The notes under the pieces are model-generated. The model saw only the letters and a program-made list of their open reading frames with translations, made no database searches and was not told where the DNA came from. A DNA stretch of 64,000 nucleotides from Methanospirillum hungatei (GTDB taxonomy: Archaea > Halobacteriota > Methanomicrobia > Methanomicrobiales > Methanospirillaceae). The stretch covers positions 2,790,001 to 2,854,000 of the forward strand of contig NZ_CP077107.1 of NCBI RefSeq assembly GCF_019263745.1. Reading direction: 5' to 3'. Of the stretch, positions 7,242-45,791 are shown piece after piece (the stretch's first letter is position 1; every line of letters starts with the position of its first letter). The translations under genes were made by a program, and so were the position numbers.

Positions 7242-8114
7242 TTACTCAAGTGCTTCGATCTCTTTCTTGAAGGCAATCCAGTAGATGATACCTACAAAGA
7301 GCAGACCACCGACGATGTTTCCAATGGTGACAACGATGATGTTGTTTGTCCACATCGTAACCCAATTCAATGTCGCAAGTTTTTCTGCAGTAATAGTTGC
7401 GACTTGTTCTGCGTTCAGGTATCCTGCCGTCATGATACCGGCGGGTATGAAGTACATGTTGGCAACACAGTGTTCGAATCCGGTTGAAACGAAAGCCATG
7501 ATCGGGAACCAGATACCGAAGAATTTACCAATTGCATCATCTGCACAGATACCAAGCAGGATAGCGAGGTTAACGAGCCAGTTACATCCGATACCCTTCA
7601 GGAATGCAGCCCACAGACCTGCCATTCCAACATAACTGACTTTTGCAATACCGATATTTACTGCCCGTAATCCAAAGGCATTCACGGTTGCAAGACCTGC
7701 AGCGTTCCATGAGACAAACGGTCCGTTTGCCATTATATATGCATAAAAGATTGAACCGATAAGATTTCCGATATAAACCCATATCCAGAGGTTCAGGACT
7801 TTTCCCCAGCTGACCTTGTGAACAAATGCTGCAAGTGGTGCAAGCATTGCGTCACCGGTAAAGAGCTCTGCACCGGTAAGGACGGTGATAATAAGCCCAA
7901 CAGGGAACACTGCTCCCAGAATAAGCTGACCAAAACCAGCTCCCAGGTTATCAGCGACTGCAGTAGAACAGACGCAGGCGAGGGCACCTCCCATTGCGAT
8001 GTATGCTCCGGACATGAATCCACGGATGATCATGTTCCACCATTCTAGGCCTGCTTTATACTTTCCAGCGCTCGCTCCCTTGGCGATTATTTGTACGGGT
8101 GGATGAAATACCAT
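7242..8114 (-). CDS. fdhC: Formate channel/transporter (FNT family)
   Basis: 290 residues with six predicted membrane helices and the glycine-rich pattern of formate/nitrite transporters: 'FMSGAYIAMGGAL', 'FPVGLIITVLTGAELFTGDAM', 'WVYIGNLIGS', 'GFEHCVANMYF', 'IGNIVGGLLFVGIIYW'. FNT proteins form pentameric pores that pass formate. Here it would feed FdhAB, whose genes lie downstream on the same strand. The ATG at 8114 opens the operon and is preceded by a leader with a stable hairpin at 8140-8174. Confidence 0.95.
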   Translation of the reverse strand: MVFHPPVQIIAKGASAGKYKAGLEWWNMIIRGFMSGAYIAMGGALACVCSTAVADNLGAGFGQLILGAVFPVGLIITVLTGAELFTGDAMLAPLAAFVHKVSWGKVLNLWIWVYIGNLIGSIFYAYIMANGPFVSWNAAGLATVNAFGLRAVNIGIAKVSYVGMAGLWAAFLKGIGCNWLVNLAILLGICADDAIGKFFGIWFPIMAFVSTGFEHCVANMYFIPAGIMTAGYLNAEQVATITAEKLATLNWVTMWTNNIIVVTIGNIVGGLLFVGIIYWIAFKKEIEALE

Positions 8115-8139
8115 AGTTAGTTACACCTTCACAGAGTCT

Positions 8140-8174
8140 GCCTGATTCAAGGCCACACAACACGCCTTGCAGGC
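8140..8174 (-). promoter_or_regulatory. Stem-loop in the fdhC 5' leader
   Basis: On the minus strand the leader can fold as a two-part stem: outer GCCTG/CAGGC and inner CAAGGC/GCCTTG, with a small AAT bulge and a loop of about 10 bases. It sits about 26-60 bases upstream of the fdhC ATG. An AT-rich TACTTAATG just upstream could be the TATA element, which would place the hairpin inside the transcript. Confidence 0.4.
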
Positions 8175-8378
8175 TTAAACATTAAGTATTTTGTGATAGT
8201 ATTAAACACTTTTGAAAATAATCCCGGCTTGAAATGCCTTATTATCCAAAAAAGACTCGAGGATATGAGATTTTATTTTTGTTATACGAAAAGTGACCCC
8301 CTCATCGGTGATTGCCGAATGAGAACCCGGATCATAATCCGGACATTTCATCATCCATTCCGTCTCAGGATAAGGATA

Positions 8379-8753
8379 ATGAATATTGACGATATTTTCC
8401 CTATCCGAAACCTTACGGTCCTCCAAAAGGTTCTATGCGTCCTGTCACTTGTTCTTCCCTGGGCAGGAATTGGTTTCTCCTATATTCTTCATTCTATGGC
8501 TATAATGGAAAATGAAGGGAGTTTTATCTGGGGATGTGTTCTTGGTTCATTTGTGTTAGCTGGTCTTGCGCTTCTGTTTGAAAAAAAGGACATCGTCTCT
8601 ATTATGACCCCGATATATGCCTTAATCATATTTTTCAGCATGGAAATTCCCTGGACTATCTTACTCCAGGTTCTGTATTCATGTACGCTCACGATTCTAC
8701 TCTGGCGACTGCTGACCAGGTATGGACCATCGAATACAATGCAACATCCTTAA
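8379..8753 (+). CDS. Small hypothetical membrane protein
   Basis: 124 residues from ATG 8379, chosen over a GTG at 8193 because the first 62 residues from that GTG are low-complexity and unlike a protein, while AGGATA precedes ATG 8379. Four hydrophobic segments are visible, starting near residues 18, 42, 67 and 85 ('LCVLSLVLPWAGIGFSYIL' is the first). No motif is recognised. It is divergent from fdhC and followed closely by the zinc-ribbon gene on the same strand. Confidence 0.5.
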   Translation: MNIDDIFPIRNLTVLQKVLCVLSLVLPWAGIGFSYILHSMAIMENEGSFIWGCVLGSFVLAGLALLFEKKDIVSIMTPIYALIIFFSMEIPWTILLQVLYSCTLTILLWRLLTRYGPSNTMQHP

Positions 8754-41635: not shown

Positions 41636-43804
41636 ATGTCTGAATCTTCGAAGATGGGGAAGGTGTTTGTGATGTCAGGAAATTCATTAAGGTGCCTGGG
41701 ATCTCTCATCCTGGTAATATTTACTGTATGTATTGTATCTGTATCAGCACAGCCGATAACTGCTCCTGTTGTGATAACATCACCAGGGATGTATGAGCTA
41801 ACGGCTGATGCCCGTGGTATTACAGATATGTATGGAATTAAGGTTGAGTCGTCTGATGTGGTGATCGACGGTCAAGGATTTTTTTTGGGTGGAGATCAGC
41901 GTGACAAATCAGTTGGTGTTTATGTGAACAAGTACGGTGGCTCAATCACCAATGTCACGATAAAAAACCTCAAACTTGAGGACTGGAATACAGCAGTCAG
42001 TTACCAGTACGTGAAAGGTGAAGAAGGTGACCAAAACGAGATTTCAAACCTTGATATCATCGATTGTCCGACTGGAATCCACATTGAGTACTCTGATGTC
42101 ATTACCATCTTTGACAATATGATTCGTGATTGTTCAAAAGCCATAAACATAGAACAGAATTCTAATTTGGTCACACTAAAAAAGAATAATCTGAAGAATA
42201 ATGGTGTTGGTGTCATCGTTATGAAAACCACTGATGTCTCCCTCATAGAAAATAACGTCAATACCTGCGAGGTGTATGGCATTCAGGTCACAGATTCAAC
42301 TGGATTTTCAATGACCAAAAACAATGTGAGTGATAACAAGTATGCTGCACTCCAGCTTGAAAACTCTGAAAACTCTGTAATCGTCGATAACAATTTCTCA
42401 AAAACTGAAACCGGCCCTGTTGTGGTAATCGGGAATGGTGTCAGGGGTGCAGAAATTTACAATAACTACTTTGGAAGTGTCAATAATATTTCAGTTGATG
42501 ATATCAGCAGTGATATCTCATGGAATACCACCCTTGACGTCGGTGTGAATATTCTTGGTGGCCCATATAAAGGCGGCAATTACTGGGGATCGGCACCAGG
42601 TCTTTCTGGTTTTTCAGATGATGTTGCAGATGAAGACGGGTATGGCATAGGTGATACACCATATGAAATTAATGCATACAACATTGATTATCTCCCCCTG
42701 ACGAACACCGACAAGAATTATCCTGCTCCGACTCCGGAACCTGAAGTTGTTGTTATATCTGAATCAGAAGGTGACGTTCTTCCTGAGGCAAACGGAACAC
42801 AATCCGATACAGATAACAGCACTGTGAACGAGAGCGTAATCAGTGAACAGATAGAGGAGAATTTATTAATCCCTGTTAACATCACTGGGACTAGTGATGT
42901 GAACTACACGACAAATAACTCCTCATATTCTCCTTCTATCTCCGTTCAGAATGAGTATAATGGAGAAGAATCAGTTTTCTCTGCTTTGAATACCTCTGTC
43001 GTGCAAGTCAGGGATGGACAGGGAAATGTCTCTGAAAATGTTACTGTTCAGAATGAAACCATATCATCTCTTCCTCTAGTGAAGAACGGGTATCTGTTCT
43101 TTACAGGACTGTCACCTGGTTATCAGGTTAGTCTTCTGACAACGGTAAATACCGAGGTTGTTCTTGATGAAGTCCCAACATCAAGCCTGTCTGTTCCTGT
43201 CCCTGCAGATGTTCCACTTTATACCTCATGGAAGGTGCAGCATCAGAATCAGACCCTCGCCACTGGAACAATTGATCGGTATCCGGCAGCAGATGAGACG
43301 GTTGTAATCAACATTAGCGTAACAGACTCCGGTGTCACACCTGAGGCTATTGAGGTGAGTTCAGTTAATCAGGCTTCTCCTGCTATTCTGGAAGTATCAA
43401 ATGAAACGGCCCCTGTCTTAGTGCAGATTGGAAATAGAACTGATACGGTGGAGAACAATACAACACCATTCCTTGTTGTCCCTCCAGCTTTGACTTATCT
43501 TCCAAAGACTACTGATGTAGCCAAGAATACTACATCATCCGGTTCCATTGTCATGATGAACAAGGCAAATGGAGAAATGGTCCCAGGATATACTGTAACC
43601 GCATACGCCGGCCCTGGTGGTGCTATCTTCCCAGAGGGGAGTGTTGAGGTTATGGAAAAAGAGAATGTCACCTTTGTTCTCACACCTTATGAAGGGCATG
43701 AGATAGACTATCTTCTGATTGACGGCTCTACTGTTGAACCGGCGACTGAGTATCAGTTTATCAATGTAACCCGTGATCACACCATCATTGCCGGGTTTAC
43801 CTGA
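41636..43804 (+). CDS. Secreted NosD-like right-handed beta-helix surface protein
   Basis: 722 residues. A signal peptide ('SLILVIFTVCIVSVSA') precedes a parallel beta-helix of about residues 45-300 with repeated 'NNV', 'ENS' and 'DNNFS' turns, the NosD/PbH1 pattern. It ends with 'GGNYWG', typical of NosD proteins. Residues of about 360-620 are Ser/Thr/Asn-rich with many N-glycosylation sequons. The last 75 residues resemble an InlB/Big-like beta repeat ('GYTVTAYAGPGGAIFPEGSV', then 'TPYEGHEIDYLLIDG'). No C-terminal anchor is seen. It is likely a cell-surface or sheath-associated protein. Confidence 0.82.
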   Translation: MSESSKMGKVFVMSGNSLRCLGSLILVIFTVCIVSVSAQPITAPVVITSPGMYELTADARGITDMYGIKVESSDVVIDGQGFFLGGDQRDKSVGVYVNKYGGSITNVTIKNLKLEDWNTAVSYQYVKGEEGDQNEISNLDIIDCPTGIHIEYSDVITIFDNMIRDCSKAINIEQNSNLVTLKKNNLKNNGVGVIVMKTTDVSLIENNVNTCEVYGIQVTDSTGFSMTKNNVSDNKYAALQLENSENSVIVDNNFSKTETGPVVVIGNGVRGAEIYNNYFGSVNNISVDDISSDISWNTTLDVGVNILGGPYKGGNYWGSAPGLSGFSDDVADEDGYGIGDTPYEINAYNIDYLPLTNTDKNYPAPTPEPEVVVISESEGDVLPEANGTQSDTDNSTVNESVISEQIEENLLIPVNITGTSDVNYTTNNSSYSPSISVQNEYNGEESVFSALNTSVVQVRDGQGNVSENVTVQNETISSLPLVKNGYLFFTGLSPGYQVSLLTTVNTEVVLDEVPTSSLSVPVPADVPLYTSWKVQHQNQTLATGTIDRYPAADETVVINISVTDSGVTPEAIEVSSVNQASPAILEVSNETAPVLVQIGNRTDTVENNTTPFLVVPPALTYLPKTTDVAKNTTSSGSIVMMNKANGEMVPGYTVTAYAGPGGAIFPEGSVEVMEKENVTFVLTPYEGHEIDYLLIDGSTVEPATEYQFINVTRDHTIIAGFT

Positions 43805-43934
43805 AATATTTTTATTTATACGATCATGTTTTTATCTTTTTAATTACGAACGAGGACTGAATATCTTATTAAACCTCAAAATGAATCGTCCTTTCAGTTA
43901 CATCTTTATCACTAATCAGCACCTTAGTTATACT

Positions 43935-45224
43935 ATGAACGCCATCACCTGGTATCGGTACCTGATGGTGTTTATTCTGATTTTGTTTGGAATATCATCG
44001 ATTCAGCCCTGTTATGCTGAGACTCCTATACCTGCCGGAGTAGACATACTAACCCCTTCAGCAACCTCTCCTATTCCATTGCAGGATGTAACCACAAAGG
44101 CAACAATAGCTCCTATTCACACCAAGGAACCAGCTGTAAAACCTCCGGTAGAGAATCCAAAACCTGGAACATCACCGACTATACAGATGCCAGTGCAAAC
44201 GCTCTCTCCAAGGCCAACATTGACCGGGACAGTGCCGGCAAGTCCAGTTCCAACTCCGTCTCTTACAGAAATAGGTAACAATGAGACTGCCCAGACATAT
44301 TTCCAATTAGGACGTTCACTTGAAGAGGCGGGTAATTGTCAGGCAGCACTCATAGAGTTTGAAAAGGCCATTGCACGTGATCCGTATTATGCTGATGCCT
44401 GGTATCATCGGGCGACATGCTATGATAAATTGGGAATGTATGATGAGGCATATGACTCATACCGGTTCCTGCTGACTATTGATCCAGGGTATTTTTCAGC
44501 AGATAAAAATGCAACTAGACCTTCGATCACAGCAAATATGAGTCCCGGAGATATGCCACTCATACCCGGAGAAGGTGTTCCATTTCTAGCTACCCCGTTA
44601 TTCTGGATTCTTATCGGGACCGGAGTAGGCGGTCTTATCATCAGTGGTCTTGTCATATATCATATCAGAAAACGTCCGGCTCCTGAAGGGGGTCAGGTAC
44701 TGTCAAGACAGTCATCTGGTCCGGTAACAGATAGAGAACTTGACCAGATCGCCGATAGTATCTCAGATTATTATCATGGGGATCAGTACATCTGCAAGCA
44801 GGTCATAAAACTGGCAATAGAAATTGCCAGAGAAGGAAGAGAAGGAAAACCGGTTGGAACAGCATTTGTCCTGGGTGACAGTGATGCGGTTCTTGAGCGA
44901 TCAAGACAACTGATCCTGAATCCACTCGCAGGTCACTCAGAATGCGAACGTATGATAACAAATCCGGATATGAGGGAAAATATCAAAGAACTTTCTCTCC
45001 TTGACGGAGCATTTGTGATACGGGAGGATGGGACAGTTGAAGCAGCGGGCAGATACATATCCATTGATACCAGTAATGTCCGGCTCTCAAAAGGATTTGG
45101 AACCAGACATGTATCAGTTGCAGCCATAACCCAGGAGACAAAAGCTATTGGGATAGTTGTATCAGAAAGTGGTGGTCAGGTCAGGATAATGGCTCGTGGA
45201 CGAATCATCCTTGAGACTAACTAA
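43935..45224 (+). CDS. Signal peptide-TPR-transmembrane-diadenylate cyclase (DAC) fusion
   Basis: 429 residues from ATG 43935, chosen because a signal peptide begins there ('YLMVFILILFGISSIQPCYA'); no clear ribosome site is visible and ATG 43881 is an alternative. A Pro/Thr-rich spacer (about 30-110) and two TPRs (about 115-185) are followed by one membrane helix (about 221-243). The cytoplasmic C-terminal 160 residues form a DisA_N/DAC domain: 'GTAFVLGDSDAVL', the DGA motif near 357 ('LLDGAFVIREDG') and the RH motif near 391 ('GTRHVSVAAIT'). DAC domains make cyclic di-AMP from two ATP. The joined extracellular TPR part is unusual and would let an outside partner control second-messenger synthesis. 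Confidence 0.82.
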   Translation: MNAITWYRYLMVFILILFGISSIQPCYAETPIPAGVDILTPSATSPIPLQDVTTKATIAPIHTKEPAVKPPVENPKPGTSPTIQMPVQTLSPRPTLTGTVPASPVPTPSLTEIGNNETAQTYFQLGRSLEEAGNCQAALIEFEKAIARDPYYADAWYHRATCYDKLGMYDEAYDSYRFLLTIDPGYFSADKNATRPSITANMSPGDMPLIPGEGVPFLATPLFWILIGTGVGGLIISGLVIYHIRKRPAPEGGQVLSRQSSGPVTDRELDQIADSISDYYHGDQYICKQVIKLAIEIAREGREGKPVGTAFVLGDSDAVLERSRQLILNPLAGHSECERMITNPDMRENIKELSLLDGAFVIREDGTVEAAGRYISIDTSNVRLSKGFGTRHVSVAAITQETKAIGIVVSESGGQVRIMARGRIILETN

Positions 45225-45233
45225 AAAAAATAA

Positions 45234-45791
45234 TTAAAAAGAGATCTCTGGTCTCTTGTTAATCTCTTCTTCAAATTCAAGGTATTCCAGTTTTGTAAGG
45301 CCTGAAAACCGTGCGACAAAGTTCGAGGGAATAGTATCTACCATGGTGTTGAACTGTTCGGCAATATTATTACATGTGTACCGCTGACGGGCAATTTCGT
45401 CTTCAACGTTTTTTACAGCGCCCATAAGTTCAGATACTGTAGCCTGGGTTTTCAGGTCTGGATAATTTTCCATGACTGCAAGAAGACGACCCAATATCGA
45501 CCGGGATTCTGCCTCTAACGCCGGAATATCACCACTACCAGCTGATCCAACCGATGCCCGCATGGCAGTGACACGTTCAAAAGTCTCCTTTTCAAATGCA
45601 GCATAACTTTTCACCGCACCCAGCAGCTGGTCTATCATGTCAAGCCGTTTTTTCAATGCGACTTTAATCTGACCAAGGGTTGCTTCATACGAGTTTTTCA
45701 ATGCGTAAAATCGGTTATAGAGTGAGATGAACCATGCTACAAGACCAAGCAGGATCAGAATCCCGATCCCGGCAATTATTAATCCTATCAT
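45234..45791 (-). CDS. LemA family protein
   Basis: 185 residues. One N-terminal membrane helix ('[20 protein letters not shown]') is followed by the long helical LemA domain with '[22 protein letters not shown]' region, '[14 protein letters not shown]' and '[19 protein letters not shown]'. LemA proteins are widespread and their function is unclear. It converges with the diadenylate cyclase gene. Confidence 0.9.

Follow-up and report, generated by a model that had tools for sequence, protein, structure and literature searches.

Control of diadenylate cyclases (DACs) is poorly known, above all in archaea. Described systems include DisA, in which an N-terminal DAC domain is followed by DNA-binding domains; bacterial CdaA/DacA, which is membrane-tethered, carries several membrane helices in an N-terminal domain (PF19293) ahead of its C-terminal DAC domain, and works with CdaR, a partner encoded separately; and DacZ/DacY (CdaZ) of euryarchaea, which has an N-terminal PK_C-like domain. 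Five archaeal DAC classes were distinguished by Corrigan and Gruendling in 2013; as cited in PMC6741144, M. hungatei Q2FM57 is placed in DacW, and M. boonei and M. palustris are the representatives of DacX and DacV, respectively.

Here, we examined a DAC gene in a window (the whole stretch of DNA analysed, 64,000 nucleotides) from Methanospirillum hungatei, the product of which also contains tetratricopeptide repeats (TPRs) and is called TPR-DAC below. Like CdaA, it is tethered to the membrane with its DAC domain at the C-terminus, but it has a single helix and an outer domain of its own; PF19293 did not match, and the CdaA model TIGR00159 reached 36 bits vs the 189 required. The DAC domain is C-terminal rather than N-terminal as in DisA, and no DNA-binding domain was found with Pfam or NCBIfam. 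The closest NCBIfam model to the DAC domain was that of DacZ (NF041371), of which only the C-terminal part was matched (121 bits vs 430). TPR-DAC shares the GTAF and VSESGG motifs with DacZ/DacY, but it spans the membrane, carries predicted outer TPRs, lacks the PK_C-like domain, and has DGA where most DacZ-type proteins have DGV.

Architecture and start of the TPR-DAC gene

The chain begins with a signal peptide, which is followed by a Pro/Thr linker, two TPRs, a single membrane helix, and finally a DAC domain that looks intact (Table 1). This confirms the order that a sequence-only reading of this DNA had described. The 34-residue helix-turn-helix repeats at about residues 118-186 were recognized by several Pfam models above their cut-offs (e.g., TPR_1 with 40 bits vs 27.8), and this region structurally matches designed TPRs. 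In the AlphaFold model, helices 119-131, 135-148, 153-165, and 169-182 make exactly two repeats with pLDDT near 90, residues 22-115 are disordered, and a further helix (221-245) falls in the membrane helix region after the TPRs. The full-length model was built from six sequences and its overall confidence is low (pTM 0.38), which makes it too weak to judge domain coupling.

Table 1. Features of the TPR-DAC locus, in window coordinates, with PKD-type examples from other loci
Feature	Position	Strand	Basis or remark
Gene for a secreted beta-helix protein (NosD-like, 722 aa)	41636..43804	+	conserved companion, directly 5' of the TPR-DAC gene
TTTATC, TATA-box-like element	43905..43910	+	invariant in nine orthologues, 25-30 nt upstream of the ATG
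TPR-TM-DAC gene	43935..45224	+	429 aa plus stop (ORF translation)
Signal peptide, residues 1-28, end CYA/ET	43935..44018	+	sequence, hydropathy; AlphaFold helix 3-22
Outer linker, Pro/Thr-rich, predicted disordered, residues 29-113	44019..44273	+	pLDDT 31-37; 32-37% mean identity outside the motif
Conserved linear motif in the linker, residues 55-74 (KATIAPIHTKEPAVKPPVEN)	44097..44156	+	86% identity; low dN/dS; no second copy
Two TPRs, residues 118-186, predicted outside the membrane	44286..44492	+	Pfam, AlphaFold, structure matches, topology signals
Membrane helix, residues about 219-241, then HIRKR on the predicted inner side	44589..44657	+	hydropathy, AlphaFold, charges
DAC domain, residues 298-423	44826..45203	+	Pfam, single-domain model, fold alignment
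DGA motif, D357 G358 A359	45003..45011	+	alignment of DAC domains
GTRH motif, G389 T390 R391 H392	45099..45110	+	alignment of DAC domains
PKD-TM-DAC examples	L057 442-2484, L122 444-2438, L130 180-1853, L108 183-1793		about 14 more

A start further downstream, depriving the protein of its signal peptide and TPRs, had been named as the case that would undo this architecture. It is unlikely because the ATG at 43935 is kept in nine of nine Methanospirillum orthologues, the in-frame ATG upstream at 43881 is not shared in this way, and the TTTATC block upstream is invariant. Judging by the spacing of TTTATC, the transcript may have no leader or hardly any. On the far side, a LemA gene (window 45234-45791) lies convergent with the DAC gene and stays beside it in Methanospirillum, although not in the other genera read.

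Conservation of the outer part

A conserved motif inside an otherwise variable linker emerged from comparison of the orthologues and is new here. Mean pairwise identity within Methanospirillum was 86% for this motif (residues 55-74), 81% for the DAC domain, and 78% for the TPRs, but only 32-37% for the other stretches of the outer linkers, and dN/dS, in a comparison that holds where synonymous sites are unsaturated, pointed to purifying selection on all three conserved parts. The motif is recognizable in orthologues of two further genera (G001 and G006), and a search for a second copy elsewhere in this genome found none. Because the TPRs and the motif are conserved while the linkers drift, the outer part is functional rather than filler.

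Distribution and relation to the known classes

We surveyed the relatives of the protein, relying on protein types that were Pfam-scanned or read by eye. Of 12 Methanospirillum genomes, 10 carry the short form seen in the window (a contig edge truncates one copy), as do G001 and G006; the two Methanospirillum genomes without it are 84% and 75% complete. A longer form with its parts in identical order is present in G009 and G017. This recurrence in 10 of 12 Methanospirillum genomes and four further genera means that the architecture is not a product of chance. Outside the family of Methanospirillum, no full-length TPR-DAC was found among 147 sampled genomes of the phylum, and a plasmid collection yielded matches to DacZ only. 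In the tree of DAC domains, separate clades are formed by the short TPR-DACs (support 95/84), by the pair of long TPR-DACs (95/80), and by a type with outer PKD domains (98/90); the tree splits the TPR-DACs into two groups, yet a single clade containing all of them was not rejected (p 0.16). The window genome encodes two DACs only, the second being a cytoplasmic PAS-DAC (L002 253-1899; G000:C1:3326134), and it lacks DacZ, in which it differs from the majority of the other families in the order.

Genome content allows the TPR type to be matched to a known class by elimination. M. hungatei JF-1 (G024) has only two DACs, one of the TPR type and one of the PAS type, and G004, which appears to be M. 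boonei, the representative of DacX, has a receiver-PAS-DAC as its single DAC. Since JF-1 offers only these two types and G004 only the receiver-PAS type, the TPR-DAC is probably DacW, a class presumably defined by the domain associated with its DAC, going by the 2013 classification as cited in PMC6741144. The sequence-only reading had regarded a DAC with outward-facing TPRs as new; novelty was not supported for the TPR layout itself, which was probably catalogued in 2013 under DacW (as cited in PMC6741144), nor for the outward-facing plan, which many DACs of the same family share with PKD domains outside. The literature searched, to which Corrigan and Gruendling 2013 and Galperin 2023 do not belong, contained nothing on point for TPRs combined with a diadenylate cyclase, and in it we found no description of the evidence for outward topology, the linker motif, the pairing with NosD, or the parallel PKD family.

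At least 18 proteins from the same archaeal family have a signal peptide or anchor, outer PKD domains, one helix, and a cytoplasmic DAC domain. In this family, DACs that cross the membrane once and are predicted to face outwards therefore extend beyond the TPR type, and many of them have PKD domains rather than TPRs. These PKD-PKD-TM-DAC proteins, which are probably class DacV, resemble TPR-DAC in their long outer part and single helix, and their DAC domains fall in the same large clade; they differ in having PKD domains outside instead of TPRs and in the absence of a NosD companion from the loci read. In several of them, an extra cytoplasmic stretch without a Pfam match lies between the helix and the DAC domain. 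Receptors are expected to swap their outer domains in this way while the membrane-DAC plan stays the same.

Two further DACs (L182 153-1508, minus strand, and L145; G007:C10) combine a signal peptide and a membrane helix with an outer part in which no domain was recognized, by a Pfam run in the case of L182. L182, which comes from another family of the order, follows the same plan.

A conserved NosD-like companion gene

That a gene for a secreted NosD-like protein directly precedes the DAC gene had been noticed from the sequence, and the link holds across three genera. The order nfo (endonuclease IV), NosD-like gene, TPR-DAC gene was found in all nine loci examined from Methanospirillum, G001, and G006, and within Methanospirillum it is kept wherever the contig allows. 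Conversely, none of 22 informative family genomes lacking the short TPR-DAC had a NosD gene beside nfo. These patterns indicate that the NosD-like gene and TPR-DAC are co-inherited, which makes it a conserved, and newly recognized, companion of the short TPR-DAC; contact between the two products does not follow, as a single event may lie behind all carriers. The two genes are separated in G001 and G006 by a small ORF that has no Pfam match (L047 7312-7758 and L048 within 7857-8432); the two ORFs are 34% identical to each other, and none was found in the window.

The pair may be read as neighbors only, having arrived once beside nfo and been kept by chance or shared transcription with no contact between the proteins, and we give this reading close to an even chance, slightly on the lower side. 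The carriers may go back to a single event, the DAC gene is preceded by a conserved promoter-like element of its own, and no NosD neighbor accompanies the long TPR-DACs in G009 and G017. Against it, the pair persists although NosD identity in the other genera has dropped to 34-45% and the neighbors downstream of the three genes in G001 and G006 differ, and nfo without a short TPR-DAC is also without NosD. A true two-gene envelope sensor, in which the secreted NosD-like protein would bind the S-layer or a surface glycan, dock on the TPRs or the motif, and thereby set c-di-AMP, is a speculative and rather unlikely extension of the same observations.

Proposed function

Taking the conserved outer part and the exchange of outer domains together, we lean toward TPR-DAC being a receptor-type diadenylate cyclase that reports the state of the envelope as c-di-AMP, with the enzyme activity predicted. 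The signal peptide would export the chain up to its one membrane span, so that the two TPRs and the long linker with its motif would lie between membrane and S-layer and the DAC domain in the cytoplasm. In M. hungatei, Pro-rich spacers bridge the 12-nm gap that separates the membrane from the S-layer, and the sheath delaminates under osmotic shock (PMC11641113). Judged by its length, a linker of about 85 residues could cross this space. DAC domains pair face to face, and this pairing is required for catalysis (PMC7288161); the outer part therefore probably sets the pairing needed to join two ATP into c-di-AMP. A partner bound by the TPRs, the motif, or both would then alter the geometry of the DAC dimer and thus c-di-AMP output, and the best candidate for this partner may be the co-inherited NosD-like protein. 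Alternatively, displacement of the tether under envelope strain could change dimer geometry and output. The resulting c-di-AMP might influence potassium uptake or the osmotic balance by way of RCK_C/TrkA_C proteins; in parallel, the cytoplasmic PAS-DAC would report an internal signal. Effects of c-di-AMP on potassium or osmotic balance have been shown or suggested for other organisms, and this genome encodes TrkA_C and DHHA1 proteins, which are candidates for c-di-AMP handling.

One point against a receptor is the small number of TPRs, as a binding groove would have to be built from just two. The protein could instead be a scaffold, with the TPRs holding the dimer together or placing it near an envelope machine and c-di-AMP being made constitutively at the membrane, although we consider this unlikely. 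TPR pairs often serve as assembly modules, and the two repeats here have no capping helix in the AlphaFold model; also in favor of a scaffold, membrane-held DACs such as CdaA rely on partner proteins (PMC13289029). A short linear motif that is strongly conserved far from the membrane in sequence is harder to reconcile with a scaffold, and the swapping of TPR, PKD, and other outer domains on the same DAC looks more like changing inputs. If the receptor reading is correct, a family of cyclases that cross the membrane once and exchange their outer domains (TPR, PKD, and others) would provide archaea with a direct line from the outside to c-di-AMP, on a plan comparable to that of receptor-type cyclases elsewhere, and the ectodomain motif and the co-inherited NosD-like protein would be defined candidates for what c-di-AMP reports in a sheathed methanogen.

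The DAC domain and its active site

The DAC domain is well supported, with a Pfam match (PF02457) at residues 298-423 of 74.4 bits against a curated cut-off of 27 (E 7e-21). Modeled alone, it reached pLDDT 84 and pTM 0.83, and the model aligned to CdaA, DisA, CdaM, and a B. cereus DAC with Z scores of 10.5-14.5, the next unrelated row being at 2.8. We checked 186 DAC domains at the active-site positions given in PMC7288161; all 14 TPR-DACs retain D357, G389, R391, H392, and S410. The DGA and RH motifs look intact, as first read, except that V393 takes the place of the last R of a classic RHR motif in the window protein. Several short DACs that seemed to lack DGA/RH (L085, L097, L101, L123, L128, and L144) were considered as degenerate forms and set aside, being of the DacZ type with DGV and GRH.

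A catalytically dead domain, which would only capture nucleotides or c-di-AMP and relay a signal to partners or to the outside, is very unlikely. The valine in place of arginine could be taken that way, and the literature searched contained no biochemical test of any DAC from this clade, from which no activity is known. However, the position after RH, V or A in TPR-DACs, varies among DacZ-type archaeal proteins too (R/L/M), all other active-site positions are invariant in the 14 TPR-DACs, and the DAC domain is under strong selection.

Membrane topology

The outward orientation of the TPRs, first proposed from the sequence, gained support from two kinds of signal. Across 13 TPR-DACs, N-X-S/T sequons number 52 in 2706 predicted outer residues and 4 in 2507 inner residues, a density about 12 times higher outside (Fisher p 3e-11, indicative only, as the sequences are related); the window protein has three outer sequons and none inside. 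The charges flanking the membrane helix, with no K/R before it and 2-4 after it, fit the positive-inside rule. Because both signals agree, the TPRs are predicted to face outwards. Cytoplasmic TPRs, with the N-terminal helix not a signal peptide and the protein inverted or not exported, are highly improbable given the sequon bias, the flanking charges, the conserved start with its hydrophobic N-terminus, and the fact that an inverted chain would put an ATP-using enzyme outside the cell. A sequon bias was also present in the PKD-DACs, with 133 in 5168 outer residues vs 9 in 4394 inner residues.
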